Positions 11,844-63,042 of a stretch of 64,000 nt of DNA are shown here, piece by piece; positions within the stretch are counted from its first letter, which is position 1, and each line of letters opens with the position of its first letter. The notes under the pieces were generated by a model that was not told the DNA's origin, did no database searches, and was given only the letters and a program-made list of their open reading frames with translations. Source of the stretch: Henckelia pumila. Lineage: Eukaryota; Streptophyta; Magnoliopsida; Lamiales; Gesneriaceae. The stretch lies in contig NC_133123.1 of assembly GCF_033568475.1 (NCBI RefSeq), positions 138,462,062-138,526,061 on the forward strand, given 5' to 3'. Position numbers and translations under genes: made by a program.

Positions 11844-11905
11844 GCTTTATAATACAAGAATGCATGAAAAATACAATTTTGTTACAATCTAGTCCCACCA
11901 ATCTT

Positions 11906-13841: not shown

Positions 13842-13871
13842 GAGAACCTTCGAGCGATCGTGCTGATAACG
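13842..13871 (-). promoter_or_regulatory. candidate primer-binding region of element A
   Basis: Directly inside the 5' LTR the minus strand reads CGTTATCAGCACGATCGCTC. This is not the usual TGGTATCAGAGCC complement of initiator Met-tRNA. The same 30 nt follow the 5' LTR of element B exactly, so the segment is constrained or recently shared. An internal (half-tRNA) primer, as known for Drosophila copia, is possible but unproven. Confidence 0.5.
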
Positions 13872-14125
13872 TGTTGTGAAAAGTAAAAATTTATGGTAAA
13901 AACTAAAAACTCTAAAACTCAAAATATATATCAAACCAAACACTTATAAAATCTTATCTCTAAACTTGTGTTATTTCTTCACAAATGTTGAGGTCTACTT
14001 ATAGATCCTCAATTGAGAAATGTCCAAAAATAAATATGTCATCCATTACATAATCAAAAATTAAAATATCATCACATCACCATCACAATAATTTTCAATC
14101 TAATTTTAATATATAATTTCCAATA
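13872..14125 (-). repeat. 5' LTR of element A
   Basis: 254 bp, same boundaries as the left copy; twelve substitutions counted by eye against it. Followed by tatat, the imperfect TSD. Confidence 0.88.
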
Positions 14126-33789: not shown

Positions 33790-34074
33790 TGTTGTGAAAA
33801 AGTAAAAATTTACGGTAAAAAGTAAATACTCCAAAACTCAAAATATATCAAACTCTACACTTTATAATATTTTTCTCTCAACTCAATTGTATTTTTCATC
33901 ACAAATGAAGACTTATTTATAGATCCACATTTGAGATTAGTCCAAAAATAAATACATCATCATCTACATCATCACACACTAATTTTCCACATTTTACAAC
34001 TCAATATTCAACATTCAACATTCAATATTCAATATTCAACATAATAATAAAAAATAATAATATATTTTTCAACA
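33790..34074 (-). repeat. 3' LTR of element B
   Basis: 285 bp, ends TGTTG/CAACA. Includes a run of TTCAATATTCAACATTCAA-like short repeats in its right third. PPT complement CTCCCCCTTG follows. Confidence 0.95.
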
Positions 34075-34239
34075 CTCCCCCTTGTGATGATGATCGTGAT
34101 ATGATGATTATCTTCATTACGTGTTTTATACTGCCTCGTTAAAAACCTTACTAGGAAAAACTCAGTGGGATAAAAACCATAGTAAGGGAAAAAGAGTGCA
34201 GCCACGTAAACTCCCCCTCATGTTAACATGAGTGATTCT

Positions 34240-37200
34240 TCACATATTCCGCAGATTGCGCATCCCAATGTTGTATATATGCTTTCTGAATATCGTCGTG
34301 GAAAGTGCCTTTGTGAAGAGATCTGATGAGTTTTCACTTGATTGAATATAACAGATATCAATATCTTTATTCTTCTCAAGCTCTTGAGTGTAAGCAAAGA
34401 ACTTTGGGGGTATATGTTTTGTTCTGTCACTTTTGATGTATCCTTCTTTCATTTGAGCAATACATGCAGCATTGTCTTTATACGACGTCACATGCTTCTT
34501 GTCTACTGATAATCCACAAGAAGTTTGAATATGTTGTGTCATTGATTTTAGCCAAACACATACACGGCTTGCTTCATGTAGCGCAATAATATCAGCGTGA
34601 TTTGATGAAGTTGTTACGAGTGTTTGTTTCTGTGAACGCCAAGAAATTGCGGTGCTTCCATGAGTAAATACATATCCGGTTTGGGAACGTGCCTTATGTA
34701 GATCAGATAAATATCCAGCATCGGCATAACCAATGATACTTTGATTGGTGTCTTTTGAGTACAAAAGTCCCAAATCTGTCGTTTCTCGTAGATAACGAAA
34801 TATATGTTTAATTCCGTTCCAGTGCCTCTTTGTTGGATATGAACTGAATCTTGCCAATAAATTTACAGCAAAAGATATAGCTGGTCTAGTGCAATTTGCA
34901 AGATACATAAGGGCACCAATGGCACTTAGATATGGTACTTCTGGACCAAGAATAACTTCATCATCTTCACATGGACGAAATGAATCATTTTCTATGTTTA
35001 ATGATCTTACAACCATTGGAGTACTTAATGGATTTGATTTATCCATATTAAAATGTTTAAGGATCTTTTCTGTATAATTTGCCTGGTGAACAAAAATTTC
35101 ACATTCTTTTTGTTCTATTTGCAAACCCAGACAATACTTGGTTTTTCCAAGATCCTTCATTTCGGATTTTTCCTTCAAGTACATCATAACCTCTTGAATT
35201 TATTTATTCATTCCATTGATGTTTAAATCATCAACATATACAGCAATAATTACACATCCGGATGTTGTTTTCTTGATGAAAACACAAGGGCATATTGGAT
35301 CATTTATATATCCCTTTTTCATCAAGTGCTCACTTAGCCGATTATACCACATTCGGCCGGATTGCTTCAACCCATATAATGATCTTTGCAATTTTACAGA
35401 ATAAAATTCTCTGGGTTTTGAACTTTGTGCCTCAAGCATCTTAAATCCTTCAGGGATTTTCATGTATATATCACTATCAAGTTATCCGTATAAGTAAGCC
35501 GTAACAACATCCATCAGACACATTTCCAAATTTTCAGACATTGTCAAACTAATCAAATATTAAAACGTAATTGCATCCATAACAGGAGAATACGTTTCTT
35601 CATAATCAATTCCAGACCTTTGAGAAAAACCTTGTGCAACAAGTCTAGCTTTATATCTGACTATTTCATTTTTCTCATTTCGCTTTCGAATAAAAACTCG
35701 TTTGTATCCAACAGGTTTTACACCTTCAGGTGTGAGGACTATATGTCCAAAAACATTACGTTTATTCAGCGAATCCAATTCAACCTGGATGACATCTTTC
35801 CATTTTTCCCAATCATGACGAGTTTTACATTCACCAAAGGTTTTTGGTTCATGATCCTCGTTTTCATTTATGATGTCACATGCCACATTATAAGAAAATA
35901 TCTCATCAATATCTTCTATATCTTTTCGGTTCCATATTTTTCCAGTATTAATATAATTGATAGAGATTTCACGATTCTCGTCAGTTTGTGGTTCTGACAG
36001 AACATTTTCATCATTAGGTGTTTCTTTGGAACACCATTTTTTATTTTATGATCATCGTGTTTCTCTATGCCTTTTCTTTTTCGAGGATTTTTATCCTTGG
36101 AACCGACTGGCCTTCCACGCTTCAAGCATTTTATGACATCATGAGTGTCTTCAATTTGTTTCTTCGGAATTTCAATTCAAGCAGGGGCATTTACAGCATG
36201 TAAATATGATTTTGTTACCCCTTTTATGTTTGCAAATGCATCTGGCATTTGATTTGCAATTCCTTGCAAGTGCACAATTTGCTGTACATCTTTCTCACAT
36301 TGTTTGGTACTTGGATCCAAATGTAACAATGATGGTACATACCATGTGATTTCTTTTTCGATGTGTTTCTTTTCTCCCCTAACATTGGGAAGATTTCTTC
36401 ATTAAAATGACAATCAGCAAAACGTGCTGTAAACACATCGCCTGTCTGAGGCTCAAGATATCGAATGATTGATGGGCTATTATAACCGATATAAATACCG
36501 ATTTTTCTTTGATGACCCATTTTTTATCGTTGAGGTGGTGCAATAGGCACATACACCATACATCCAAAAATTCTCAGATGAAAAATATTTGGTTCTTTAC
36601 CAAATGCAAGCTGCAATGGGGAGAATTTATGATATGCACTTGGTCTGATGCGAATTAATGCCGCAACATGTAAAATTGCATGTCCCCATATAGAAATAGG
36701 GAGTTTTGTTCTCATTATCATTGGTCTAGCAATCAGTTGTAGACGTTTAATCAATGATTCAGCTAATCCATTCTGTGTATGAACATGAGCAACAAGATGT
36801 TCAACAGTAATTCCCATTGACATACAATAGTCATTGAAAGTTTGGGAAGTAAATTCTCCAGCATTATCAAGTCTTATTTTCTTGATTGTATAATCGGAAA
36901 ATTGATTCCGTAATTTTATTATTTGAGCCATTAGTTTTGCAAATGCCACATTTCGAGTTGACAATAAGCATACATGTGACCATCTGCTGGAGGCATCGAT
37001 CAATACCATAAAATATCGAAATGGTCCACATGGTGGATGAATTGACCCACAAATATCATCCTGAATACGTTCAAGAAATATGAGTGATTCTGTTTGGATT
37101 TTAGCTGGCGATGGTCTTATAATAAGTTTTCCAAGAGAACATGATTTACATTGAAACTTATTATTCTGAAAGATCTTCTGGTCTTTCAATGGATGACCAT

Positions 37201-37840
37201 GCGTATTTTCAATAATTCTTCGCATCAATATTGAACCAGGATGTCTCAATCGATCATGCCAATTGATTAATATTGAAGAACTATTAAACACTATTTTTGA
37301 TTCGATTGGCCTTATATGTGTATAATTCAATCCAGTAGGGAGCATTGATAATTTTTCAACCACATATTTCTTTCCTGATTTATATGTGGTAAGACACATA
37401 TATTTCTGATTTCCATCAGTTATCGTCTCAGTATCATATCCATGAGAATATATGTCATTAAAACTCAACAAATTTCTTTTCGATTGTGGTGAATATAAAG
37501 CATCATTTATCAGAAATTCTGTACCATTTGGTAACAAAAATTGTGCTTTACCACAACCTTCAATCAAGTCTAAATGACCTGATATTGTATTCACCATTGT
37601 TTTTGTTGGTTTTATTTCCAAGAAATATCTTTCATCTCGCATAATAGTGTGCGTTGTACCACTATTCGGTATGCAAATTTCCATGATATTATTTCCATGT
37701 TTGCTCATAGCATTTTCCATATCAAACTTCACAAAATGCAATAAAGAAAAATTAAGTTCAATATAAATGCAAAATATAACATGCTTTATAATACAAGAAT
37801 GCATGAAAAATACAAATTTGTTACAATCTAGTTTCACCAA
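34240..37840 (-). pseudogene. Copia pol of element B
   Basis: Same domain order as in element A. Protease is IPNSGTTH: the catalytic Asp of DSG is Asn (codon 37664-37666). Integrase is open to a TAA at 36524 (Ser in A). A one-base deletion near 36374-36382 shifts frame before the linker. TAA codons at 35560, about 35485 and 35200 break reverse transcriptase; YVDD itself is intact. RNase H is open from 35187 to the natural stop at 34240. The element is inactive for its own protease and polyprotein. Confidence 0.9.
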
Positions 37841-37843
37841 TCT

Positions 37844-38884
37844 TTAATCAATGTCTTCGAAATCATTCAAAAAATCTGCAGCATTGAAACTAGTTGAACC
37901 AATTAAATGGTCACTATTTTCAACAAAATTGATCTCTTTTCCTTTCCCCTTTGTCGATTCTTTATAGAGCTTACATAGGTGCTCAGGGGTTCGACATATA
38001 TGTGACCAATGTCCTGGAGTGCCACATCTATAACAAACACTCTCAGTTCTTTTTGAGTGATTTTCATTTTCACTCGTATTTTCATGCTGCCTTTTTGGTG
38101 GGTGGTTCGTGACGTTCTTTTGAGATGAGTTATTGAAGTAACTATCTCAATTATTTTCATATCCACGGCCGCGACCACGACCGCGATCATTTTTACGTCC
38201 ACGTCCACGCCCACGTCCTCGACCTCGTCCACTACCAAAATCTGGTCTATGCCTTTGATTTTGATTTTCATTTTTCATTACGACATTTGCTTCAGAAAAT
38301 GCCGTTGATCCAGTGGGTCGGGATTGATGATTTCTTATTAACAATTCGTTGTTCTTTTCCGCCACAAGAAGACATGCAATGAGTTCAGAATATCTCGTAA
38401 AACCACACACTCTATACTGTTGTTGTAGAGTTATATTTGATGCGTGAAAAGTGGAAAATGTTTTCTCAAGCATTTCCATCTTCGTAACTTCAAGTCCACA
38501 GAGTTTTAATTGCGTGAATATTCGATACATCGCAGAATTATAATCACTGACTTTTTTAAAGTCTTGGAATCTCAACGTATTCCATTCATCACGGGCGGTC
38601 GGGAGTATCACTTCCCTTATATGCTCAAATCTTTCCTTCAACCATTTTCATAAAATCATTGGGTCTTTTTCTGTGAGATACTCACATTTCAACCCTTCAT
38701 CAAGATGTCGGCATAAGAAAATCATTGCCTTTGCTTTATCTTGTGAGGTTGATATATTAATTTCTTTGATGTTATCACTTAGACCCAATGACTCAAGATG
38801 CATCTCAACATCAAGAGTCCATGGCATATAATTTTTTCCAGTGATATCGAGTGCAACGAATTCAAGCTTTGCCAAGTTTGACAT
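37844..38884 (-). pseudogene. Copia gag of element B
   Basis: Starts MSNLAKLEFVALDITG; ends in the TAA at 37844-37846. A TGA at 38648-38650 sits at the same codon as in element A, and a second TGA (38147) replaces Arg (CGA in A). The Arg-Gly tract and CCHC knuckle (CYRCGTPGHWSHIC) are present downstream of that stop. Confidence 0.88.
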
Positions 38885-39294
38885 GGTGGTACTAGAAAAA
38901 TAACAATACATTTTATTAGTTAATTTCCATTAATATGACAATACAAAATAATGGAAAAATGAAAATTACAAGTGCGTATACAAATAGATAAAAAGTATGT
39001 GGTGGAAAATCGCTGGTGAGTACAAGACTCGTGAGCATGATGATCATAATCGTTATGAAAAATAGCCTTATAAATGCCATCATCTCCATCTTCGAAAAAT
39101 CGAGTAAAAATATTTTGAGAGAAAGAGTGAATTTTGGTGTGATTGAAAATAAGTTTGAGTGAACATATTTATAGGCCAAAAACTAGCCGTTTGTGACCGT
39201 TGAGGGTAAAGAAGAAATCGAGTATATGTTGAATAAAAATTCGTGATAATGATGCAATGCATATAATGATAATCATAATTAAATAATTATGTAT

Positions 39295-39580
39295 ATCATA
39301 TCACATTATTATAAGGTCAGTGTCGTAGACAGCCTTTTATATAATATTGTGAAATTATACCAATATAGTTAGTATAAAGTCAGGTATAGTATATCATATC
39401 ACATTATTATAAGGTCAGTGTCGTAAACAACCTTTTATATAATATTGTGAAATTATACCAATATAATTAGTATAAAGTCAGGTATAGTATATCATATCAC
39501 ATTATTATAAGATCGGTGTCATAGACAACCTTTTATATAATAACATGAAATTATACAAATATGATTATATTGTTTAATAA
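39295..39580. repeat. tandem repeat (98-bp period, three units) in the leader of element B
   Basis: ATCATATCACATTATTATAAG starts at 39295, 39393 and 39491. Homologous to the 108-bp array in element A but with a different spacer, so period length has changed within the family. Confidence 0.88.
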
Positions 39581-39839
39581 CCTTAGAGGCTTTTATACTT
39601 GTCGTATCCCTTACCGGGAGTGTGGGATGTCGTATTAACATCCTCCCAGGATTTATAACAAGTTTTAAAAAAAAAAACTTATTTTTTTTCATAACATGAT
39701 ATTATATATTAATATATACACAATAAAAATATATAAACAGTAAAATAAAAATTCTTACTTGTTGAATATTTTTGACTTCTTCTTGTATTTTGGAGCATTG
39801 GAAATTATAGAGAACCTTCGAGCGATCGTGCTGATAACG

Positions 39840-40124
39840 TGTTGTGAAAAAGTAAAAATTTACGGTAAAAAGTAAATACTCCAAAACTCAAAATATATCA
39901 AACTCTACACTTTATAATATTTTTTTCTCAACTCAATTGTATTTTTCATCACAAATGAAGACCTATTTATAGATCCACATTTGAGATTAGTCCAAAAATA
40001 AATACATCATCATCTACATCATCACACACTAATTTTTCACATTCTACAACTCAATATTCAACATTCAACATTCAATATTCAATATTCAACATAATAATAA
40101 AAAATAATAATATATTTTTCAACA
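39840..40124 (-). repeat. 5' LTR of element B
   Basis: 285 bp; identical ends to the left copy, followed by TSD TATTA. Confidence 0.95.
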
Positions 40125-47874: not shown

Positions 47875-48112
47875 GAATCTGTTACGCCTTAAACGCATAC
47901 AAATCTTATGTAATGAGATTAATATTTTTAATGCATTAACAATTCTCATAATTAAATTATTTTGATGATTACAAAACTCGGTTAATCGTTACTAACAGTT
48001 TAAAGTGAGAAATTTGCAGGTAATAATATTTTTGAGTATAGACAATATTGGAAGCAAGAACCGATAATCAAAAATTGGGAATAAAAATTCAAAATTTCAA
48101 ATCTGTCCAGGT

Positions 48113-48500
48113 TCGGACGACCCGAAGACAACTTCGGATGCTCCGATGTATTTCCAGAATTTAATAAAGATCGGAGGACAAGTTCGGAGACTTCGAAGAC
48201 TACTTCGGACGATCCGAAGTGAGTTCGAACGACCCAAAGATTTTCCAGAAATTAAATAAAGATAGGAGGCACTCTCGGAGGCCATGAAATGACTACTTCG
48301 GACGACCCGAACTCCTTTACGGCCATGAAGATTTTGTCGGAAGAAAATTTGCCGGAATGAATTTAATGCCGCCGTTCGGACGACCCGAAGATGACTTCGG
48401 ACCACCCGAACAGTACACCAGCTGTAAGAATTTGAATTTCAATCAGACAAGGTTCGGACGACCCGAAGGCCCGTTCAGACGACCCGAACCCGTTCGGATT
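48113..48500 (+). repeat. TTCGGACGACCCGAA palindrome array in U3 of the 5' LTR
   Basis: About eleven full or degenerate copies of an inverted repeat TTCGG-N5-CCGAA within about 390 bp, spacer most often ACGAC. It ends about 7-10 bp before the TATA box. The architecture (reiterated dyad sites next to the core promoter) is that of an LTR enhancer; the binding factor is unknown. Confidence 0.85.
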
Positions 48501-48506
48501 GGCACC

Positions 48507-48514
48507 TATAAATA
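48507..48514 (+). promoter_or_regulatory. TATA box of element D 5' LTR
   Basis: TATAAATA preceded by the palindrome array; the same box is at 62488-62495 in the 3' LTR. It defines U3/R. Confidence 0.8.
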
Positions 48515-49057
48515 CATGCCATTTGAAGCCTTCTCAACTCACCAATTCACTCTCAACTCTCTTTGCAAGCAAGTTCCTCTCCTACAAGAGTTAAAAGAAA
48601 TATTTGTGAGATATATATTCAAAATCGAGGGTTGTTTGTATAAGTTCATTCGTGAGTTGGTTGCTCGGTTATTGTAAACACTTGTGTGTGAAGTCAAGTA
48701 TATTTACGAGTGTTGTGGCTATCCTTGGAGCCCTTAAGGCCAAGTGTTGAGTTGTATCGGCGCGGTGATTGTGTCAAGTTGTAAGGCTATCCTTGGAGCC
48801 ATCAAGGCCAAGATGTTGAAGTGCTAGTGGATCCTTGGTTAATCGATCTTAACCAAGAAGGTAAGACGTAGACGATTTATCGTCGAACTTCCATAAACAT
48901 CTCTTATCCCTTTTATTTACATTACGCATTTATTTACCGCACTTATTATTAATTGTTTTAAGTCTTCCGCTTGCGTACTAGCATAATCACTTTAAATTGC
49001 TAAAGTTTGACAATAGAACCTAAATCTCCCCCCCCCCCCCCATTAGGTTCTAACAAG

Positions 49058-49070
49058 TGGTATCAGAGCC
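49058..49070 (+). promoter_or_regulatory. primer-binding site of element D
   Basis: TGGTATCAGAGCC, complementary to the 3' end of plant initiator Met-tRNA, two bases after the LTR end. Confidence 0.95.
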
Positions 49071-49102
49071 ACCTTTTTCAAAATATTTTCAAAAAGGTTC
49101 TT

Positions 49103-50517
49103 ATGGCAAATCTAGCGAGCGACTATGCTCAAGGGCAATCAACAAATCGTCCTCCTCTTTTCAATGGCATAAACTACGGATATTGGAAAAATCGAATGTC
49201 CCTATATATCCAATCCGTAGACTATGACCTTTGGAAGGTTACTGTGAAAGGTCCCTTCATACCTACTAAAGAGGTTGAGGGTGTCAAAATTCCTTAGGGA
49301 ATGGACGACTTTTCTAAGGAGGATATGAAACTTATATCTCAAAATGCTAAAGCCATGAATATTCTTCATTTTTCCTTAGATATGAACGAATACAATCGGA
49401 TCTCGATGTGCTCATCCGCTAAAGAGATATGGGACAAGTTGGAGATATGCCATAAAGGGATTAATCAAGTCAAAGAGACGAAGATCGATCTACTCCAACT
49501 CAAATACGAAACATTTGAGATGGAAATCAATGAAGATGTTGACACAATGTCCGAAGGCTTAATCAAATCATCAATGAGTTAGCCCAACTTGGAGAAAAGT
49601 ATCCATCCAAGCAAGTTTGGAGAAGAGCTTTACGCACCCTACCCAAGGAGTGGGATGCAAAGAGGACTGCCATCATTAAGTCCAACAAAGGTGACACCGC
49701 ATCATATGATCTTGATCAACTCCATGGGACCCTAAAAACCCATGAGTTGGAAGTATCTACAAGGAAAGAGTCAAAGAGAGAGGATGAAAAGACCAAGGCA
49801 AAGGGGATTGCCTTATCTACCCAAGTCGAAGAAGAAGATGATGATGATATGGCACTCTTCGCAAGAAAATTCAAAAGATTTATGCGAGAAAACAACTTCA
49901 AAAAGAATATGGACAAGGAAGTTACTTGCTACAACTTTCAACAATAAGGGCATTATGCAAATGAGTGCCCTCTCAAGAAGAAATCTGACAAAGGAAAGAA
50001 TAAAACACTTCTAGCCACTTGGAGCGATAGCGACGATGAAGAGGAGGAAGCTAACATTTGCCTCATGGCTAAAAGTGATGACATCGTCTCCGACGACGAT
50101 GACGAGGTAACTTCCTATGACGAACTACTACATGCATATAAACAAATGTTTGATATGGCTAAGTCACTTAGAAAGGAAAATAAAAACCTTAAAAATGAAT
50201 TAGAAACTAAGGGGCATGAAAACGTAAGATTAAAGGATGACATAGCCCACTTAGAAAAATATTTTAATAAGTTCAATGTCAGTAGTAATAAATTGAATAA
50301 TCTACTTAGCATGCAGAAATGTAGTTTTGATAAGGGTGGAATAGGGTACGGTAAGAAATCAATAGACTTTACTAGTCTAATTGCTAAAGCTAAAATGAGA
50401 TCACCCCCTACATGCTCTTATTGTTGTAAAATTGGTCATGCTAGATATAAATGTAGATCTTTAAGATTTCAATATGATCAAAAGAGCTATATGAAATGGA
50501 GGCCTAAGAGTACTTAA
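49103..50517 (+). pseudogene. gag of element D
   Basis: Starts MANLASDYAQGQSTNRPPLF with the Copia gag fold (FNGINYGYWKNRM, EIWDKLEICHKG). Breaks: TAG 49295-49297, a frameshift near 49555-49565, and TAA near 49945 within the first zinc knuckle. There CYNFQQ-stop-GHYANEC has also lost its second Cys to Phe. A second knuckle CSYCCKIGHARYKC (about 50417-50458) is intact. An acidic SDSDDEEEE and coiled-coil stretch lies between, typical of SIRE gag. Confidence 0.88.
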
Positions 50518-50824
50518 CAACTCATCAGCCGACATTATGAGATCATGATCAAAGGGAGTTCATCATAGACCGGTTTAAACTCCTTGACTTGCGACTGGTC
50601 TTCCTGATGAACGCTGCTCTGTTCAAGAAAATAGGTTTTTAAAGAGGCCATGGCCCTACCTACTACTGGAAGCACTCTTAGAAAGTGGCGATGATGTTAC
50701 TATGAGAGACTGAACTCTTAGAAGTCTATTTTGTATCTCTCTTTTCTAACATTGTGGACCCAAAAAAACTAAAGGGTACCAAAACCAATTTTTGCAAGGA
50801 AATAGGAAAACTGTTCTCCCTAGC

Positions 50825-53800
50825 ATATGATATCTAGACAGTAGATGTTCTAGACATATGACGGGAAACAAAGAGCTACTCCAATCCATCAAACCAAAGG
50901 AAGAGAGATCTATCACCTTTGGAAACAACAGCAAAGGAGTTATCGAAGGAATCGGCTCAATAGGTATATCTGAATCCTGCTTGATTGATGATGTACTCCT
51001 AGTGAAAGGGCTTAACCATAATTTACTAAGCATAAGTCAATTGTGCGATAGAGGTTATGAAGTCAAATTCACTCCCCAACACTGCACTATATCACTCATG
51101 ACTGACAAATCCATAAATTTCAAAGGATATAGAAGTGAAAATGTATACAAGGTTTCTTTAAATAATTTATCTTTATCAAATATTAAAAGCCTTGTATCCT
51201 TGAATATTGATGGCAACATTCTTTGGCATAGACGACTAGGTCATGTTGGTCCTAGTACCATAGAAAAACTTTTTAAACTTGATTTAGTTGTTGGTATTCC
51301 AAAACTCAATTTAAAATTAGATTCTGTTTGTGATGCATGTCAACTTGGCAAACATACAAGAGAATCTTTTAAAAGGAAATATTTTGTATCAACTTCTATG
51401 CCCCTTGAACTTCTTCACCTAGATCTATGTGGTCCCTCGAGGAACGCTAGACTAGGAGGGAAGCTTTATGCATTTGTCATTGTGGATGATTTTTCACGTT
51501 ACACGTGGACATTGTTTTTAGCCCATAAAAATGATGCCTTTGATTATTTTAAAACTTTTGTCAAACGAGTTGAGAATGAGAAAAATCTTTCTATAAAACA
51601 GATCCGTAGTGACCACGGAACTGAATTTCAAAATGAGAGTTTTTCAACCTTTTGTGAAGAGAAAGACATCGGTCGCAATTTTTCTTGTCCTAGGACTCCT
51701 CAACAAAACGGGGTCGTTGAGAGGAAAAATAGGACACTTGTGGAGATTGCAAGGACCATGATATGTGAGCATTCTCTACCAAAATATTTTTGGGCTGAAG
51801 CAATGAACATTGCTTGTTACATTATCAATCGTGTTTCAATAAGACCAATTCTCAAGAAAACTCCATATGAATTATGGAGAGGGAGAAAGCCTAACATTTC
51901 CAACTTTCGAGCTTTCGGTTCCAAATGCTATATTCATAATAATGGTAAGGACAACCTTGGCAAATTTGATGCCAAATCCGACAAAGGTATTTTTCTTGGA
52001 TATTCTACTACAAGTAAGGCTTTTAGAATATTTAATAAACGTACTTTACTTGTTGAAGAATCAATGCATGTAATATTTGATGAACCTATGTCTATAGTTC
52101 CTCGTAATACTAACGATGATGTAGAATTACTCGAACAAGACATGACCTCCTCAAGCTTAAATGATATAGATGTTTCTGTTGAGAAAACACCACTTCCGAA
52201 GGATTGGACGCTTCACAAAGATCATCCTATGGATCTTATCATTGGAAGTCCTTCGAAGGGAGTAACCACTCGCTCTTCAATTAATAATATTTGCAATCAT
52301 CTTGCTTTTGTTTCGCATGTTGAACCTAAGTGCATTGATGATGCTTTATTATATGATTCATGGATTATTGCTATGCAAGATGAGTTGAATGAGTTTAGAC
52401 GTAATAATGTTTGGAATCTTGTTCCTAGGCCGCATGATAGATCTATTATTGGAACTAAATGGGTATTTAGAAATAAACTTGACGAGCATGGTACTATTAC
52501 TAGAAATAAAGCTAGGCTTGTAGCTAAAGGATATAGTCAAGAAGAAGGAATAGATTATGATGAAACTTATACGCCTGTTGCTAGACTAGAATCTATTCGC
52601 ATGCTACTTGCTTTTGCTTGCTCAAGAAATTTCAAGTTATTTCAAATGGATGTCAAGAGTGCATTTCTTAATGGTGAATTGAAAGAGGAGGTTTACATTG
52701 AACAACCTGATGGCTTTGTTGATACTGCTTTGCCTGATCATGTGTTTAAACTTAACAAAGCTTTGTATGGATTGAAACAAGCTCCTAGAGCTTGGTATGA
52801 TAAACTGTCTACTTTCTTGCTTTCAAATGGTTTTTCAAGAAAAGATCGACATTACTTTATTCACCAAGAATGTCAAAAATGATCTTTTGATTGTGCAAAT
52901 TTATGTTGATGATATAATATTTGGTTCTACTGACGAATCTCTTTGTCAAGATTTCTCCAAGCTTATGCAGGAACACTTTGAGATGAACATGATGGGGGAA
53001 CTTAACTATTTCTTCGGATTGCAAATCAAACAGTGCAAGGATGAGTTCTTTGTGAACCAAAGCAAATACATCAAGGAGATTCTAAAGAAGTTTGGGATGA
53101 AGAACACAAAATCATTATCCACACCGATGAGCACATCAATCAGACTCGACAAGGATGAAAATGGTAAAACTGTAGATCAATCTTCCTTTCGTAGTATGAT
53201 TGGCTCCTTATTATATGCTTCTGCTAGTAGACCGGACATTATGTTTAGTGTTTGCTTGTGTGCACGATTTCAATCATGTCCAAAGGAATCACATTTGTTC
53301 GCCTTAAAACGCATTTTCAGATATCTTTCAAATACTCCAAATCTCGGCTTGTGGTATTCGAAAAATTCTTTCTTTGATTTAAAAGCTTACTGTGATGCCG
53401 ACTTTGGTGGATATAAGGTGGACCGAAAAAGCACTAGTGGAACTTGTTTCTTTTTAGAAAACTGTTTAGTTTCTTGGTTTTCCAAAAAGCAAAACTGTGT
53501 TGCGTTGTCAACGACCGAAGCCGAATATATGGCTGCCGGTAGTTGTTGTGCGCAATTTCTTTGGATGAAGCATTAATTGCTCGACTATGGCGTCTCTTTT
53601 TTAAAAATCCCTATTTTTTGTGACAACACTAGCGCCATTTGTCTTACAAAGAATCCGATTCAACATTCGCGCACCAAACATATTGACCTTCGTCATCATT
53701 TTATTCGTGACCACATCGAACGAAATAAAGTTGAACTTCAATATGTTGACACGTCAAATCAAATTGCCGATATTTTTACAAAACCACTAGATGAAAATAA

Positions 53801-53843
53801 TTTTATTCGTTTGCGTGGTGAACTTGACATGATTGAGTTGTAA
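50825..53843 (+). pseudogene. pol of element D (PR-IN-RT-RNase H)
   Basis: Protease region [12 protein letters not shown]: the usual DSG is DSR (Arg codon 50843-50845), with a TGA three codons before the Asp region. Integrase: WHRRLGHVG...CDACQLGKH, core with [18 protein letters not shown] and [13 protein letters not shown] begins near 52440; a frameshift near 52835-52845 precedes IYVDDIIFGS. RNase H with SKKQNCVALSTTEAEYMA is broken by TAA 53574-53576, then runs to TAA 53841-53843 (IADIFTKPLD). Coding capacity is lost. Confidence 0.92.
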
Positions 53844-54265
53844 ACACTTACAAACATAAATAAATTTAATGTCATATTAAGGGGGAGCTTAATATTAAAA
53901 TCGAGCAAATTAATTTTGGATAATATAAATCAATTATATTTATTCAAAATTAAAAAGCTCACATTTTATGTGAATTATTTGATTTAATACTTAAAATTGC
54001 AAAATTTAATGTAAGGGTCATTTTTCGAATTTTTGAAACTTCGGCTGGTTCGGACCACCCGAACCATAGTTCGGATTGTCCGAACTGCCTCGCGCCCATT
54101 CAATTCAAGACTTTCAAAATTCCCTCCTGATTAGCCAGTTCGGGCCCTCCGAACCAAGCTTCGGATCGTCCGAACTATGGGCGGTAAAACTTTGAATTTT
54201 GACCGCCTCAGCTTCGGGCCTTCCGAAGAACTTCGGACGTCACGAACTTAAAAATGTACTGTTCG
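53844..54265 (+). other. pol-ORF2 spacer of element D, left part
   Basis: Untranslated. A PPT-like AAGGGGGAGCTT sits at about 53879. From 54047 on there are six or so TTCGG/CCGAA dyads (TTCGGACCACCCGAA, TTCGGATTGTCCGAA, TTCGGATCGTCCGAA and others). The target duplicate GTTCG (54261-54265) ends the segment. Confidence 0.7.
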
Positions 54266-54644
54266 TGTAACGACCCACTGTATCAAGACGGGTCTTTTCA
54301 GCGTGCTTATGTCCTCACTCACACGCACCCTGAGAAACTTCCCAGGGGGTCACCCATCCTATAATTGCCCCAAGTAAAGCACGCTTAACTTTGGAGTTCT
54401 TATGTGATGAGCTCCCGAAAAGAAGATGCACCTTCTTGATATGAATAGTACATATGAAATCTTTTAAGCCCTCCTCAACCATGTAGTCCCATACCTACAC
54501 TGTCTCAGAATCCCTCTCATTTCGGCACGGGATCGGTTCATTCATGTCTCCCTCCGCCTAGAAGCCTATCAGGAGCCGCTCATTGTCCGTGCAACCTCTT
54601 GGCACCGGCGATCACTCCCTGCCTCTTCAGCCCCGGGCGTCACA
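54266..54644 (-). repeat. Cassandra LTR 1 (type alpha)
   Basis: 379 bp, TGTGACGCCC...CGTTACA on the minus strand. Carries a 5S rRNA-like segment (54331-54412). Variant bases (GAGAAACTT, ATATGAATAG, CCCTCCTCAACC) match LTR 3, not LTR 2 or 4. Confidence 0.88.
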
Positions 54645-54714
54645 TGCCCACCAGCTTCCGCTTGGTTCGTCCCCGAACCATACCGTACTAAGAGAGGTCG
54701 GCTCTGATACCATT
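54645..54714 (-). repeat. Cassandra internal domain with PBS
   Basis: 70 bp containing, on the minus strand, TGGTATCAGAGCC right after the LTR end and AGCGGAAGCTGGTGGGCA before the next LTR start. No coding capacity, as in all Cassandra TRIMs. Repeated at 55095-55164 and 55544-55613. Confidence 0.85.
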
Positions 54715-55094
54715 TGTAACGACCCACTGTATCAAGACGGGTCTTTTCAGCGTGCTTATGTCCTCACTCACACGCACCCTGAGTAACTTCCCAGGGGGTC
54801 ACCCATCCTATAATTGCCCCAAGTCAAGCACGCTTAACTTTGGAGTTCTTATGTGATGAGCTTCCGAAAAGATGATGCACCTTCTTAATATGAGCAGTAC
54901 ATATGAAATCTTTTAAGCTCTCCTCAACTATGTAGTCCCATACCTACACAGTCTCAGAATCCCCTCTCATTCCGGCACGGGATCGGTTCATTCATGTCTC
55001 CCTCCGCCTAGAAGCCTACCAGGAGCCGCTCATTGTCCGTGCAACCTCTTGGCACCGGCGATCACTCCCTGCCTCTTCAGCCCCGGGCGTCACA
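54715..55094 (-). repeat. Cassandra LTR 2 (type beta)
   Basis: 380 bp. Distinguished from LTR 1 and 3 by GAGTAACTT, GAGCTTCCG, TTAATATGAGCAG, CTCTCCTCAACT, CACAGTCTC and TCCCCTCTC; these variants are shared with LTR 4 at the right end. 5S-like segment at 54780-54861. Confidence 0.88.
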
Positions 55095-55164
55095 TGCCCA
55101 CCAGCTTCCGCTTGGTTCGTCCCCGAACCATACCGTACTAAGAGAGGTCGGCTCTGATACCATT

Positions 55165-55543
55165 TGTAACGACCCACTGTATCAAGACGGGTCTTTTCAG
55201 CGTGCTTATGTCCTCACTCACACGCACCCTGAGAAACTTCCCAGGGGGTCACCCATCCTATAATTGCCCCAAGTCAAGCACGCTTAACTTTGGAGTTCTT
55301 ATGTGATGAGCTCCCGAAAAGAAGATGCACCTTCTTGATATGAATAGTACATATGAAATCTTTTAAGCCCTCCTCAACCATGTAGTCCCATACCTACACT
55401 GTCTCAGAATCCCTCTCATTTCGGCACGGGATCGGTTCATTCATGTCTCCCTCCGCCTAGAAGCCTATCAGGAGCCGCTCATTGTCCGTGCAACCTCTTG
55501 GCACCGGCGATCACTCCCTGCCTCTTCAGCCCCGGGCGTCACA
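55165..55543 (-). repeat. Cassandra LTR 3 (type alpha)
   Basis: 379 bp; differs from LTR 1 at about one base (AGTCAAGC versus AGTAAAGC). 5S-like segment at 55230-55311. Its internal domain (55544-55613) runs directly into a Gypsy LTR at the primer-binding site. Confidence 0.88.
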
Positions 55544-55613
55544 TGCCCACCAGCTTCCGCTTGGTTCGTCCCCGAACCATACCGTACTAAGAGAGGTCGG
55601 CTCTGATACCAAC

Positions 55614-58316
55614 TGAAACGACCCTAACTCTCTAATAAATAAATATGCGGAAATTTTTTTTTTTTTATACTACTAAATAAATATAAGTACATATATGCCC
55701 ATACATATATGCACTAAATAAAAATACTAAAAATAAATTCATGACTAAATAAATAAACAATTTGAATACTTAAATAAAATGCATTCTTAAAAATAATTAA
55801 ACAACTGAGTCAACCCTAGAATTAAAAATATACTGCATAAATAAAATAAATAAAAATGTGCATGCACTAAAATATTTAATAAAATATTTCAAACACCTCA
55901 ACCCAAATAAAATAATAAAATGTATCATAAGACATCAGCACGGTGACTCAAAAACTGTCACGGTCACGGGGCTACTGCAGCGCTGCTCATACATCCTCAC
56001 CACCGGTAGGAGTAACCTGCTCCTCTATGTACTCACCTGCACCATATCAGTGTAGTGAGCCTAGAGGCCCAACATGCATACTAACAAGGGTTTAAAATAA
56101 TTTAAATCACTTTAATACTAATACATACATATACATGAATGAGCATGCTTAAAAATTTACATAACATAACTTACATAAATAAACATACATAACATACATA
56201 ATATCATACATACATAAGTTGTTGAGCATTTATTTTCTGAACATCGAATGGTCCTATCCGTAAGTGTGACCCATAGTGCGACTGATCAGTCTAGGAAACC
56301 ATCGTACGAGGCTGGTGGCGAACCACCCATACATAAATGGCAGAAAACTGCCCATACATAAATGGCAGAAACTGCCCATACATAAATGGCCACACTACTT
56401 CAATTTCCACCTAAAATATTTTATTTGCTCAACCATAGAAATTAAATCATAGCATAAAAATTGATTTCATGAATGCATGTACTTAAATAAATTGTGTGTC
56501 CTTTATATATATTTAATTTAATTTTTCTTACTAACATATAAATATTAAAATAACTTAAATGCATAAAAATAATTAAATATATAATCAGGACACATGCAAT
56601 TTTCTCATGGATGGTTCTGGACTGCTGGCCCTACACTCAAGCCCATTAACTTAAATCTGGCCCGTTAACATACTTAAGGCCAATAACTTAAACTTTAAGC
56701 CCAATTAATTAATCTAAGCCCAATTACATTAATTAAGCCCATTAAATTAATTAAGCCCATTAAAAATACTCGAAGCCCAATAACACTTAAACTGGCCCAT
56801 TGGGTCCAAAAACCCAAAGACTGGCCCATTAACTTTTATGGGCCCAAAAGCCCATAAAATTAATGGACAACCTTAATTAAAATTTTAAAAGTCCAAATAA
56901 AATTATTTGGGAGTCCAAATAATTTTATTTCAATTTATTTGACCCAAAAACACATAAATTCGTAAAATACTTTAAAAATAAAAAGACTCGAGCCCAGCCC
57001 ACCAAACTCGGACCCGAACTCACTAACCCAACCCACTACCTAACCGACCCGACCCGGACCACTCAGACCCGACCCAGACCCCTAACCCAGCCCAACCCGA
57101 TCCCCCCTCTCCCATTGCTTCTCGGCCGTGAGCAGCAGGCCTTCTTGGCCTGCTGCCGGCCGGCTCCGGCCGCCCCTGGCCGGAGCGCCGCCGCCCGGAC
57201 GTAGCCCACGTCCGGGCGGACCTAACCCAGCCAAGCCCCAACCCCCATGCAGCCAGGAACCACCGAGCCGCAGCCTTTCTCCCCAAACCCTAAACTGGTC
57301 TCGGCTGCGCCTCCTGCACCTTTCTAGTTCAAAACCAATCGGCCGAGCCCTTCTCAGCCCCAAGCCTTGACATGGCTCGACCCTTAGGCACCCTAGGACC
57401 TTACCTGACCGAACCCTCAGCCCCGAACCAAGCATGGAGAGGAAAAACGTGAGTTATGCATAAGAATCGAATCACAAGGCACCACAGCAACAAAGAAATC
57501 GTTTTTCTGAAAATTTCTTAAAAGGTTCAGATGCCTACCGTAACTGTCATGATATATATACTGATATAGCGAAAAAAAATAAGAAAAGAACATGCCTTTC
57601 ACCGAAGATGACGAGAGAACACGAGCGTGAGACGGTTCCGGGACGACGGGACGAAAATACGGGCTTTTGGAGCTTCGAACCTCTTGGCTATGGCTTCTCT
57701 GGGACTGCTGGGTCGAGAGGATGAAGACAATGAGTGGGGGTGGCGGCTGAAGTTGAGAGTGACGTGAGGTTTTGGGTGGGGTTGGGTAGATTTAGGTTTT
57801 ATTTTAATAGAAAATAGGGTAATTAATTATATAATTAAGGATATAATATATATATAAAATATAACTCAACTAAAACTCTAAAAGAAACCTTTAAAAAAAA
57901 TCTGAAACATAAAATAAATCTCGAAATATTAATTTAGGGGAATTTTAAAAATACTAAAAAGTCAATATTTTGACTAATTTTGGATAAAAATGACTCCCTA
58001 AAATTAAATAAAATTAAATACTTAAAATTTTGGGATAATAAAACTCAAAATAATATTTTAAGGCTCCAAAAAGGCTCATAAAATAATCTGGCTAGAAAGT
58101 TGTCATCTCGTCCGTCCACGGTCCCGTCTACGCGATTAAATAATAAAAATACTAAAAATCATATAAATCACTAATTATGGGTTAAATGCTTAAAAATAAA
58201 TTAAATCATGCATAAATAATTCACATAATTATTTAACCCATAAATCATAAATTTAAATAATTAAAAATCCTAATTATGCAGGCGGATTTATGTAATTAAA
58301 AATACCGGGTGTTACA
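55614..58316 (-). repeat. Gypsy LTR (2.7 kb), minus orientation
   Basis: Runs from TGAAACGACCC to GGGTGTTACA (TG...CA). On its right is a Gypsy PPT (AAGGGGGGGAGAAT on minus, 58317-58330) and on its left a PBS (TGGTATCAGAGCC on minus, about 55600-55612). An LTR bordered by the PPT on one side and the PBS on the other is the junction of tandem elements or a circle, not a simple insertion. A GC-rich island lies at 57000-57400. Confidence 0.75.
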
Positions 58317-58361
58317 ATTCTCCCCCCCTTAAATTGAATTTAGTCCTCGAAATTAAAGTAC

Positions 58362-58526
58362 TTACCCGAACAACTCCGGGTAGCGAGTCCTCATATCCTC
58401 CTCGGTCTCCCAAGTAGCTTCCTCCTCCGAGTGATTCAGCCACTGGACTCTGACCATCGGTATGACCCGCGTCCTAAGCCTCCTCTCCTCTCTAGCCAAG
58501 ATCCGCACTGGTCTCTCCTCGTAAAC
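58362..58526 (-). pseudogene. Gypsy chromodomain C-terminus
   Basis: Minus-strand frame ending RYPELFG-stop at 58362 with the chromoviral signature [38 protein letters not shown]. This is the normal end of a plant chromovirus (Tekay/Del-type) polyprotein, followed by the PPT and LTR in the expected order. The frame is cut at about 58526, where sequence on the opposite strand begins. Confidence 0.85.
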
Positions 58527-59733
58527 AAGATCTGGAGGCACTATCTTTACGGCGAGAAGTGCAAGATTTTCACCGACCACAAGAGCCTCAAGTACTTTTT
58601 CACCCAGAAGGAGTTGAACATGAGGCAGCGTAGATGGCTTGAGCTTGTTAAGGACTATGACTGTGACATTAGCTACCATCCGGGTAAGGCTAATGTAGTG
58701 GCAGATGCTTTGAGTCGAAAGTCGTCAGTGGTATCATGTTTGACTGTACAGTTACCACTACAGACCGAGATTCAGAGATTTGGGTTGGAGTGCTATCCGA
58801 GCGGCCATGCACCGAGCTTGTCAGTGTTGACGGTGCAGCCAGTTTTGAGAGATCGGATTAGAGAGGGACAGTCCACTGATGAGGAGCTACAGCGATGGAG
58901 ACAGAGAGATGAGGCCAGAGGTAGTCTCTTGTATACAGTGGAGGATGACATCGTTCAGTATCGTGGGAGGATGTGGGTACCGAACGTTGATCAGTTGAGA
59001 GCCGAGATTCTAGCAGAGGCTCATGCATCTCCGTACTCCATTCACCCCGGAAGTACGAAGATGTACCGAGACTTACAGTTATCGTATTGGTGGCCCGGGA
59101 TGAAGAGTGACATCGGGAGAGTGGTGTCAGAGTGCTTGACTTGTCAGCAAGTCAAAGCAGAGCATCAGCGTCCAGCAGGACTACTTAGACCTCTCCCTAT
59201 ACCGGAATGGAAGTGGGAGAATATTACGATGGATTTCGTGGTTGGCTTACCGAGGAGTACCAGAGGGTGTACAGCGATTTGGGTGATTGTGGATAGACTC
59301 ACCAAGTCAGCTCATTTCTTGCCGGTAAGGACTACTTACACCTTGACACAGTATGCAGAGCTTTACATCAGAGAGATTGTTAGACTGCATGGCATACCAG
59401 TGTCTATCGTGTCAGACAGAGATCCGAGGTTCACCTCAGCGTTTTGGAAGAGTCTGCACACAGCTTTGGGGACTAGACTCTTGTTCAGTACAGCTTTTCA
59501 TCCCCAGACAGATGGTCAGTCCGAGAGAGTGATCCAGGTTCTCGAGGATCTTCTGAGAGCTTGTGTCATCGATTTTCGAGGATCTTGGGAGACTAGACTG
59601 CCATTAGTGGAGTTTACCTATAACAACAGCTTTCAGTCGTCTATAGGTATGGCTCCATATGCAGCACTGTATGGGAGGAGATGCAGATCTCCGGTGCATT
59701 GGGATGAGGTTGGTGAGCGGAAGCTGGTGGGCA
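58527..59733 (+). pseudogene. Gypsy RNase H-integrase fragment
   Basis: Open plus-strand frame (part of the ORF 58431-59738). RNase H end: [42 protein letters not shown]. Integrase: zinc region around [17 protein letters not shown] with CLTCQQVK, then core [26 protein letters not shown] and [14 protein letters not shown] (D,D,E intact). It stops at GERKLVG, well before the end of a normal integrase and chromodomain, fused to the Cassandra internal tail. No stop codon within it. Confidence 0.9.
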
Positions 59734-60113
59734 TGTGACGCCCGGGGCTGAAGAGGCAGGGAGTGATCGCCGGTGCCAAGAGGTTGCACGGACAATGAGC
59801 GGCTCCTGGTAGGCTTCTAGGCGGAGGGAGACATGAATGAACCGATCCCGTGCCGGAATGAGAGGGGATTCTGAGACTGTGTAGGTATGGGACTACATAG
59901 TTGAGGAGAGCTTAAAAGATTTCATATGTACTGCTCATATTAAGAAGGTGCATCTTCTTTTCGGAAGCTCATCACATAAGAACTCCAAAGTTAAGCGTGC
60001 TTGACTTGGGGCAATTATAGGATGGGTGACCCCCTGGGAAGTTACTCAGGGTGCGTGTGAGTGAGGACATAAGCACGCTGAAAAGACCCGTCTTGATACA
60101 GTGGGTCGTTACA
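59734..60113 (+). repeat. Cassandra LTR 4 (type beta), plus orientation
   Basis: 380 bp, TGTGACGCCC...CGTTACA. Nearly identical to LTR 2 in reverse complement. Preceded by 18 bp of Cassandra internal tail (59716-59733) that is continuous with the Gypsy integrase frame. Confidence 0.88.
59975..60055 (+). promoter_or_regulatory. 5S rRNA-derived segment (Pol III promoter elements)
   Basis: Resembles the 3' two-thirds of plant 5S rRNA: AGAACTCCAAAGTTAAGCGT (A-box side), ATAGGATGGG (intermediate element), GGGTGACCCCCTGGGAAGTT (C-box). This is the hallmark of Cassandra TRIM LTRs. It is not a functional 5S gene: the 5' third is absent. Confidence 0.88.
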
Positions 60114-60118
60114 GTTCG

Positions 60119-60241
60119 AACCATCCGAATGTACTTCGGGTCCTCCAAACTTGAATTACAGACTGTCAATCTTATCTCCTCGATAATCAGGTTCAACCGT
60201 CCGAACCCAGTTCAGATCGTCCGAACCCTCTGCTATATATA
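60119..60241 (+). promoter_or_regulatory. putative internal promoter of element D ORF2
   Basis: Diverged TTCGG/CCGAA dyads (60119-60230, continuing the array interrupted by the composite) lead to TATATATA at 60234-60241, about 75 nt before the ORF2 ATG. The arrangement copies that of the LTR U3 (array, then TATA). Promoter activity is inferred. Confidence 0.5.
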
Positions 60242-60314
60242 CCCCCTCGGGCCATCCGATTTCTTCACCCCTAAACTTTCTTTTCTCCTCTCTCATCTGA
60301 GATCTAGCCTAAAA

Positions 60315-61550
60315 ATGCCTGCCAAACGCCGTCGTGATCAAGCTAGCTCTAGCCGCCCAATCCCTATCCATGATCCAAATTTACCGGCTATTTCTCGTCC
60401 TATCCCTGAGGATTATCCCACTCGACCGATTTTACCCGGTCGTATTCTCGATGTCACCTATCTTGCGACATCACATCTGCTTTTATTGCCTCTCATTGCT
60501 GCCCAGCATTGGGAATCCTTTTTCCAGCCTTCCATTTCGGATGCCATCTTTCCAGAGTTACTTTACGAGTTCTACGCCAACCTGGAACTCGAACTTGGCG
60601 AGGAGCTTTATATCGCCACGATTGTCCAGGGTCGGCATATTCGCTTTTCTGTCTCCAACTTTTCCGAGTGGTTTGATCTTCCTTTGCTGGGACCCAGCAA
60701 CTATTTCGGTCAGGGATGGCCCACTAATGATCCTACTTTTGATCGAGATGAGGTTCTTTCTACTATTCTTGGTCGTCCAGCCACTGTTGCCGACGATCGT
60801 CTTTATTTGAAACAACTCCGTCCCGACTACCAAATCATTCAGAAATTGATCACTACTTCCATCATTCCGCGCAGTGGAGACTCATCCACCTGCAAATATC
60901 TTGATCTTTATGTTCTCTACCATATTGTCTCTTCCCGTCCTTTCAACCTTCCTCGATTCATTATGCAGGCTATGCAAAATGCGGCTAAAGCCACGAGGAA
61001 AAATTCTCTACCTTTTGCTCGTGTCATCAACCGCATTTTGACTCATTTTGACATCTCTTTTGATGACCCAAATGCTCTTCCCATCTCTGATTTCCACACT
61101 TTCAACCATTCTTCGATTACCAAGATGGAACTATCTTGGAATCCTATCCTTTCTTGTTGGGTTAATGACCCAACTCGTGCCTTTAAAAAATATCTTCCGG
61201 ACAAACATTTTTCACTCCCTTATTCGAGTCTTTCACCCACTTCTCAAGCTAAGGGTTTTCCCAATGGGCCGCCTGCCGAAGAAGGAGGACCTTCTTCTTC
61301 TGGTTTTCATACTTTTCCAAGAAATCTTGGCGAGCTTCCATTTGAACTACCCGAAGTTCCTGAGACCCCCGCTCCTCAAACTGATCGTCTTTTCAAGACT
61401 CTTCAGCGCATTGAAGGGAATCTGGCCAGCCACTTTGCATCTTCTACTGCCTCTATGGATGCATTGACTATGAGAGTTGCCTCGCTGGAGACTCGCTTCG
61501 ATGACTTTATCTCTCGCTATCCTCCGCCGCAGCACGATGATGACTCTTAG
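60315..61550 (+). CDS. ORF2 of element D: putative plant transposon protein-like, 411 residues
   Basis: Intact ORF downstream of pol and upstream of the PPT. ATG at 60315 (MPAKRRRDQASSSRPIP) is preferred over the longer frame from 60051, which begins inside the Cassandra LTR. After a basic/Ser-Pro N-terminus, residues about 75-280 (LLYEFYANLELE, IRFSVSNFSEWFDLP, KYLDLYVLYHIVSSRPFNLPRFI) resemble the domain annotated as putative plant transposon protein (Transposase_32 type). The C-terminal 60 residues form a heptad-like helix (LFKTLQRIEGNLASHF, MRVASLETRFDDF). SIRE-lineage Copia elements carry an extra ORF here, often called env-like. No signal peptide or clear transmembrane segment is evident, so the env label is not supported. 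Function unknown. It is uninterrupted although gag and pol are ruined. Confidence 0.8.
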   Translation: MPAKRRRDQASSSRPIPIHDPNLPAISRPIPEDYPTRPILPGRILDVTYLATSHLLLLPLIAAQHWESFFQPSISDAIFPELLYEFYANLELELGEELYIATIVQGRHIRFSVSNFSEWFDLPLLGPSNYFGQGWPTNDPTFDRDEVLSTILGRPATVADDRLYLKQLRPDYQIIQKLITTSIIPRSGDSSTCKYLDLYVLYHIVSSRPFNLPRFIMQAMQNAAKATRKNSLPFARVINRILTHFDISFDDPNALPISDFHTFNHSSITKMELSWNPILSCWVNDPTRAFKKYLPDKHFSLPYSSLSPTSQAKGFPNGPPAEEGGPSSSGFHTFPRNLGELPFELPEVPETPAPQTDRLFKTLQRIEGNLASHFASSTASMDALTMRVASLETRFDDFISRYPPPQHDDDS

Positions 61551-61839
61551 ATTTTATTTTTGCATTTTAAGTTGTACTTGTTTATGCTTTTAATGTAAAA
61601 ATTTCTAAATTAGTTTAATGAAATTATTGTGTAATTTAATTTTTTCGTCTTTTAATTGCTTTTTGATTATCGCAAAAAGGGGAAAAATTAATTTGGTTAA
61701 ATAATTATTCATTAAATTGAGAGGGAGTTTTAATTATTATAGCTTTAACAATATTTGAGTAAATTTGTTTAATTATATTATTGCCTTATTTTATTTCTTC
61801 TATTTAACCAAGTTTTGTGATCATCAAAAAGGGGGAGAT
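61551..61839 (+). other. 3' untranslated internal region and PPT of element D
   Basis: AT-rich, non-coding. Ends with the polypurine tract AAAAGGGGGAGA (61827-61838) adjoining the 3' LTR. A second purine tract GAGAGGGAG lies near 61719-61727. Confidence 0.75.
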
Positions 61840-63037
61840 TGTTACACCTTAAACGCATACAAATCTCGTGTAATGAGATTAATGTTTTTAATGCATTAAC
61901 AATTCTCATAATTAAATTGTTTTAATGATTACAAAACTTGGTTAATCGTTACTAACAGTTTAAAGTAAGAAATTTGCAGGTAATAATATTTTTTAGTATA
62001 GACAATATTGGAAGCAAGAACCGATAATAAAAAATTGGGAATAAAAATTCAAAAGTTCGAATCTGTCCAGGTTCGGACGACCCGAAGACAACCTCGGATG
62101 CTCCGAAGTATTTCCAGAATTTAATAAAGATCGGAGGACAAGTTCGGAGACTTCGAAGACTACTTCGGACGATCCGAAGTGAGTTCGGACGACCCGAAGA
62201 TTTTCCAGGAATTAAATAAAGATCGGAGGCACTCTCGGAGGCCACGAAATGACTACTTCGGACGACCCGAAGACAGGTTCGGACGACCCGAACTCCTTTA
62301 CGGCCATGAAGATTTTGTCGGAAGAAAATTTGCCGGAATTAATTTAATGCCGCTGTTCGGACGACCCAAAGATGACTTCGGACCACCCGAACAGTACACC
62401 AGCCGTAAGAATTTTAATTTCAATCAGACAAGGTTCGGACGACCCGAAGGCCCGTTCGGACGACCCGAACCCGTTCGGATTGGCACCTATAAATACATGC
62501 CATTTGAAGCCTTCTCAACTCACCAATTCACTCTCAACTCTCTTTGCAAGCAAGTTCCTCTCCTACAAGAGTTAAAAGAAATATTTGTGAGATATATATT
62601 CAAAATCGAGGGTTGTTTGTATAAGTTCATTCGTGAGTTGGTTGCTCGGTTATTGTAAACACTTGTGTGTGAAGTCAAGTGTATTTACGAGTGTTGTGGC
62701 TATCCTTGGAGCCCTTAAGGCCAAGTGTTGAGTTGTATCGGTGCGGTGATCGTGTCAAGTTGTAAGGCTATCCTTAGAGTCATCAAGGCCAAGACGTTGA
62801 AGTGCTAGTAGATCCTTGGTTAATCGATCTTAACCAAGAAGGGGAGACGTAGACGATTTATCGTCGAACTTCCATAAACATCTCTTATCCTTTTTATTTA
62901 CATTACGCATTTATTTACCGCACTTATTATTAATTGCTTTAAGTCTTCCGCTTGCGTACTAGCATAATCGCTTTAAATTGCTAAAGTTGCCAATAGAACC
63001 TAAATCCCCCCCCCCCCCCCCACATTAGGTTCTAACA
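61840..63037 (+). repeat. 3' LTR of element D
   Basis: 1198 bp. Its palindrome array (62092-62480) has one more unit than the 5' LTR: 21 extra bases containing a complete TTCGGACGACC site near 62270-62290. TATAAATA at 62488-62495; C run near 63006-63020. Confidence 0.95.
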
Positions 63038-63042
63038 GAATC

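Follow-up and report, generated by a model that had tools for sequence, protein, structure and literature searches.

Cassandra retroelements are widespread in plants and encode no protein. Their autonomous partners are called unknown in the part of Kalendar et al. (2020, PMC7215508) consulted here, and the corresponding part of PMC10886601 gives no indication of them. The same part of Kalendar et al. describes Cassandra tandem arrays with the order long terminal repeat (LTR)-internal region (int)-LTR-int, for which template switching is one possible cause. Chimeric insertions with several LTRs and outer target-site duplications (TSDs) are described for Angela, Squiq and Opie, where they are ascribed to switches between co-packaged RNAs (Sabot and Schulman 2007, PMC1950507); in the sections consulted, these complexes have three LTRs, the outer ones alike, from a single family, and the word 'inverted' is absent from the text of that report. 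In maize, an inverted tandemly arrayed terminal-repeat retrotransposon in miniature (TRIM), Zma-SMART, consists of two inverted TRIMs with the TSD CTTCA and was validated by PCR (Gao et al. 2016, PMC4717578). Here we describe a 5848-bp insertion in a 64,000-nucleotide stretch of the Henckelia pumila genome (hereafter the window; contig NC_133123.1, positions 138,462,062 to 138,526,061) that joins Cassandra to Ty3/gypsy sequence and has the U5 end of a Cassandra LTR at either terminus.

An outer TSD and a hybrid interior are common to this insert and the template-switching complexes, but the direct outer LTRs of the latter, which leave U3 at one terminus and U5 at the other, are not found: both ends are U5, and two families, Cassandra and gypsy, contribute. 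The maize composite is 559 bp long and is described as consisting of SMART alone, unlike our Cassandra-gypsy insert, and the available sections of its description state neither a mechanism nor which LTR end faces outwards. The published Cassandra arrays resemble the left arm of the insert but, in the sections consulted, hold Cassandra units only, whereas the left arm adds gypsy. A Ty3/gypsy chromovirus is the source of the insert's remaining LTR, polypurine tract (PPT), RNaseH-integrase and chromodomain sequence, present in the window as fragments only and in two orientations. In these sources, template-switch complexes of the direct kind and a single inverted TRIM from maize were already known, and the U5/U5 Cassandra-gypsy insert is a variant on these. 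The initial annotation of the window, made from its letters alone, had recognized no standard class with such a structure; the complexes and the inverted TRIM are precedents. Among the titles and abstract openings listed from the open-licence literature, none reported a U5/U5 retroelement insertion or gave Cassandra a partner.

The insertion occupies positions 54266-60113 between two copies of GTTCG (54261-54265 and 60114-60118, plus strand). Both termini are the U5 end of one 379-380-bp LTR, facing outwards, and the best pair of inverted arms extends over 398 nt with one mismatch. With the left flank as query against the same genome (884.7 Mb, 133 contigs), 40 of 1281 candidates were scored, giving 41 matches, and the 30 best-match loci were taken; one was the window itself, and the remaining 29 (L016-L044) are paralogous sites without the insertion. 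At all 29 a single alignment spans the junction and the target is present once (27 GTTCG, two GTTTG), with the alignment gap in one paralogue (L027) beginning 7 nt past the junction. Because the empty sites carry the target once, the insert is a single integration event with a genuine 5-bp duplication; a random 5-mer match at two points has a probability of 0.0016 (host element) or 0.0049 (within 300 bp). The single insertion with a perfect TSD and the outward Cassandra U5 ends, both asserted in the initial annotation, are thus confirmed, the left end proving to be an array of three LTRs, and the two GTTCG copies, which it had conceded might be unrelated to an empty site, are not so.

These observations bear on the possibility that two independent Cassandra insertions were brought together by later inversion, deletion or recombination, or that the assembly is in error. 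Cassandra is abundant, with U5-end matches at 2255 places in the genome (up to three mismatches; 1123 on the plus and 1132 on the minus strand), and the region is repetitive. Against such an origin, and as an indirect test of the assembly, stand the common perfect TSD, the 29 empty paralogues, the two LTRs and TSD of the host element around the insert, and a separate second locus of the same kind (L009, below); we regard it as hardly credible.

The left arm is antisense throughout and, from the outside in, comprises a Cassandra array, a shared primer-binding site (PBS), a gypsy LTR, a gypsy PPT and a chromodomain. Rather than one LTR, its outer part is a three-LTR array, L1-int-L2-int-L3-int (54266-55611), in which L1 (type X, 54266..54644, U5 end outward), L2 (type Y, 54715..55094) and L3 (type X, 55165..55543) alternate with 70-bp internal regions at 54645..54714, 55095..55164 and 55544..55613, each running from a PBS that we take to be of the iMet type to a PPT. 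L3 has one mismatch relative to L1, while L2 has 13 differences from L1 and one mismatch relative to the right LTR. The innermost internal region is fused to the gypsy LTR at the common PBS, TGGTATCAGAGC (55600-55611), and its GT spacer matches that of the gypsy. The gypsy LTR itself (2703 bp, TGTAACACCCGG...GGGTCGTTTCA, 55614..58316, minus strand) is homologous to those of gypsies at three other loci (L009, L047 and L049) and is followed by the PPT and chromodomain end (58317..58535, minus strand; the gypsy at L009 shows 95.8% identity over 58317-58530). Orientation changes at 58530..58535, where antisense chromodomain meets sense RNaseH. The right arm, on the plus strand, consists of a gypsy RNaseH-integrase fragment (58530..59717; Pfam RT_RNaseH and Integrase_H2C2; 95.6-95.9% identical to the L009 and L049 gypsies), 18 nt from the PPT-side end of the Cassandra internal region (59716..59733), and the right Cassandra LTR (type Y, 59734..60113, U5 end outward).

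Three switches separate the parts: PBS to PBS (12 nt in common), chromodomain to RNaseH with the change of strand (6-nt microhomology ATCTGG), and a third from integrase to Cassandra with about 2 nt of microhomology. The L009 and L049 gypsies, which are not the true parents, served as the reference for the microhomologies. On this comparison a 16-20-nt homology considered at the integrase-Cassandra junction was dropped, these gypsies reading otherwise there and leaving about 2 nt, and a palindromic AGATCT at the strand switch was replaced by ATCTGG, the two gypsies again reading differently. We also rejected a DNA transposon with terminal inverted repeats, as the arms are Cassandra LTRs found elsewhere in direct pairs and the internal Pfam matches are RNaseH and the integrase zinc-binding domain, with no transposase.

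The LTR of 379-380 bp (sense TGTGACGCCCGG...GGGTCGTTACA) adjoins a 70-bp internal region with a purine-rich PPT. In three of the four LTR copies, one of them L2 (54769-54882), a 5S rRNA-like sequence matched the full Rfam model RF00001 at 26.5-29.3 bits (E 0.008-0.04), short of the 38-bit gathering score; in the outermost left copy the match did not reach E 0.1. Short LTRs, a 5S-like match and a tiny internal region with PBS and PPT fit a Cassandra-type TRIM, in agreement with what the consulted parts of PMC7215508 and PMC10886601 describe. Plain copies of 830-831 bp with TSDs are present at L004, L005, L007 and L011. As judged from domain order (RVP_2, RVT_1, RT_RNaseH, Integrase_H2C2 and Chromo in the L009 pol) and a weak chromodomain match (E 5e-4, below the Chromo cut-off), the gypsy family of the window is of the chromovirus type. 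The gypsy and Cassandra LTRs are alike at 10 of the first 12 and 10 of the last 11 bases, and the PBS is the same in both. The host copia element carries that PBS too, so the PBS alone is no test of partnership. Among viral contigs, a scan with the gypsy protein gave one pattern match and no relative, and a Cassandra DNA word matched no stretch.

Searching the genome for other Cassandra-ended inverted composites, as the initial annotation had suggested, uncovered a second U5/U5 insertion. The Cassandra loci were those most similar to the window's LTR (40 of 1615 candidates scored), and 13 regions were selected for odd structure or as the continuation of an odd region; annotation drew on Cassandra and gypsy sequence alone, and the counts that follow are not frequencies. 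The second insertion (C3:161686638-161694900; L009, L013) has the TSD CAACT. It begins with an antisense Cassandra LTR and int, followed by Cassandra R-U5 in antisense, a fold and Cassandra R-U5 in sense; a full-length gypsy comes next, and a gypsy LTR with its U5 end terminal closes the insertion. Its gypsy belongs to the window's family (integrase 95.5%, chromodomain 95.8%), with an interrupted gag frame and an open pol frame. The fold, at AAGAAGATGCACCTTCTT, lies where the 5S-like sequence starts (model position 1), and the consulted part of PMC10886601 has Cassandra RNA begin there; both cDNAs would thus look like run-off ends. Over 171 nt the sense R-U5 forming the fold arm equals the outer LTR save at two fold positions, whereas it differs from the neighbouring antisense inner copy at six further sites. 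Given these six differences, the strand's own 3' end was not the template; what was copied was another molecule or the far end of the same strand. The insertion sits between two long tandem arrays of opposite orientation (L012 and L014, spacing about 99 bp), one of which is abutted by a 241-base match (82.9%) to the U5 portion of the gypsy LTR in the window.

Direct hybrids of the two families recur elsewhere. Our TSD survey covered 19 sequences from 17 places, treated as 18 insertions (L011 and L045 as two, L048 as one), and 14 of the 18 had a TSD at the LTR ends; none was found within the stretch analysed for L003, L046, L053 and L054. The 14 comprise four plain Cassandras, two Cassandra variants without a gypsy match (L010, L052) and eight Cassandra-gypsy hybrids including the window, two of the hybrids being U5/U5. 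The others include a 3084-bp insertion with the order gypsy LTR-PBS-Cassandra int-LTR (L047, TSD AAGTG), a larger gypsy-Cassandra array (L051, GGTCT), and a Cassandra LTR-gypsy leader-PPT-gypsy LTR-Cassandra int-LTR structure (L011 and L045, ACTTA); a weaker case (L050, ATATA) lies at a low-complexity site. A complete gypsy internal region stands between Cassandra LTRs at C1:2695022-2703322 (L049 and L055, TSD GCATC), in the order Cassandra LTR-full-length gypsy internal-gypsy LTR-Cassandra int-LTR; its gypsy frames are open (361 and 1136 aa), its outer Cassandra LTRs are identical (380/380), and a Cassandra promoter may head the gypsy transcript there. One gypsy and one Cassandra end bound each of L009, L047 and L051, which shows that ends of both kinds are usable in one integration. 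The junction pattern gypsy LTR-PBS-Cassandra int occurs at 13 genomic places with at most two mismatches, including the window, L047 and L049; the same pattern run backwards as a control gave no genomic match. A possible further hybrid at L048 (C2:80088982-80093665) extends from gypsy U3 to Cassandra U5 with inverted Cassandra and gypsy pieces inside; GTGTA stands on both sides, a match that may be chance given the roughly one dozen end pairs tried.

A tRNA-primed minus strand begins at a U5 end, and both ends of the window's insert are of that kind. The most economical source of such a product would be two minus strands that paired 3' end to 3' end and were then filled in. With good though not full confidence, we read the insert as one integration of a chimeric reverse-transcription product: two tRNA-primed minus-strand cDNAs whose 3' ends paired, were filled in, and were inserted by a shared integrase. 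Cassandra RNA and chromovirus-type Ty3/gypsy RNA would have entered one particle, where tRNA-iMet would prime two minus strands at Cassandra PBSs, making Cassandra U5 the 5' end of each. The first cDNA would run through Cassandra LTR-int repeats, cross to gypsy at the shared PBS and continue through gypsy LTR, PPT and chromodomain; the second would run through a Cassandra LTR and cross into gypsy integrase-RNaseH. Pairing of their growing 3' ends at ATCTGG, each then extended on the other, would yield linear double-stranded DNA, U5-ended on both sides, with no need of PPT-primed plus-strand synthesis, and an integrase, presumably that of the gypsy, whose LTR ends closely resemble Cassandra's, would insert it with the usual 5-bp duplication. 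We infer the co-packaging, the order of switches, the minus-strand pairing and the identity of the integrase from these structures. The L009 structure would result if two cDNAs each reached the 5' end of a Cassandra-headed RNA as run-off products and paired at that point.

The right LTR differs from L2, in the middle of the left array, at one site and from the outermost L1 at 12, which favours two different cDNAs over a prior palindrome; of the initial proposal that an integrase joined two U5 ends of a palindrome-ended DNA, the joining survives and the palindromic precursor does not. The same comparison speaks against a single minus-strand cDNA that folded back and copied its own 3' part. The RNA start is nearly self-complementary, and two such 3' ends can pair, but the right LTR matches L2 and not L1, the inner arms of the window's insert are different gypsy regions, and the L009 fold arm departs from the adjacent inner copy at six sites beyond the fold. 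Copying of a strand's own 3' end is rejected by these arm differences at both loci, and we consider the snap-back origin very improbable.

The main rival is end joining, in which host microhomology-mediated or non-homologous repair fused the broken inner ends of two truncated double-stranded Cassandra-gypsy cDNAs before integration, leaving two U5 ends. It yields the same product, is compatible with a single integration and TSD, and agrees with the short microhomologies (6 and about 2 nt) at two of the window's switches. Yet it does not predict a fold within a few nucleotides of the 5S-like start, and the L009 fold at the RNA start favours paired minus strands. It would also produce U3/U3 insertions as often, whereas pairing of minus strands predicts U5/U5 and never U3/U3; none of the 14 TSD-bounded insertions is U3/U3, a weak test. 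Taken together, we hold end joining to be unlikely. Several points nevertheless weigh against paired minus strands. There are two clean U5/U5 cases only, and 14 insertions are too few to test a model that forbids U3/U3. The loci were chosen by similarity to the window's LTR, many of them for odd structure, and annotated for Cassandra and gypsy alone; they therefore yield no frequency, and a hybrid with another family would have escaped notice. The integrase-Cassandra junction fits end joining equally. Standing hybrids, and not the same event, may have supplied parts of both chimeras: L049 shares the Cassandra U5/gypsy PBS junction with L009, and the gypsy-LTR/Cassandra-int junction of the window's left arm recurs at 12 other places. 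Finally, the L009 fold arm could be a copy of the same strand's far end.

On this reading the chromovirus-type gypsy is the best candidate for Cassandra's partner, and the suggestion in the initial annotation that the trapped gypsy might identify that partner gains from the other Cassandra-gypsy hybrids with perfect TSDs. Co-packaging, with Cassandra using this gypsy's enzymes in trans, would be the natural reading of hybrids that were annotated for gypsy only. Any plant genome would allow this specific candidate, which shares LTR ends and PBS with Cassandra, to be checked, and the U5/U5 structure would preserve intermediates of reverse transcription that usually go unrecorded. We see the arguments as evenly balanced on a wider proposal, that 3'-end pairing of two minus-strand cDNAs in one particle, whether at the start of the RNA or through a chance microhomology, with plus-strand priming skipped, is a recurrent second route to integrable LTR-element DNA, that the chromovirus gypsy is Cassandra's partner, and that Cassandra LTRs now bracket a complete gypsy coding region.

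The insertion lies within a copia element (47880..63037, plus strand), delimited by self-comparison, its edges and Pfam matches to RVT_2 and rve. Its LTRs (47880-49055 and 61840-63037) are flanked by the TSD GAATC (47875-47879 and 63038-63042), and it has a PBS at 49058, pol frames at 50858-53573 and a PPT. Over 1199 aligned columns the two LTRs have 39 mismatches and 24 gap positions, an identity of 94.7%. Because the insert's own LTR pairs differ at one site each (L1 and L3, 1 of 379; L2 and the right LTR, 1 of 380), the insert looks younger than its host. Between the host's reverse transcriptase and 3' LTR, a frame at 60318-61547 matches PF20167 (Transposase_32, putative plant transposon protein). 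The window also encodes a tubby-like protein with 99% identity, over 84% of the query, to a Henckelia pumila protein. Elsewhere in the window, two related copia-type elements (7896-14125 and 33790-40124) are 89.6% identical over 6.3 kb and carry terminal repeats of about 250-285 bp each.

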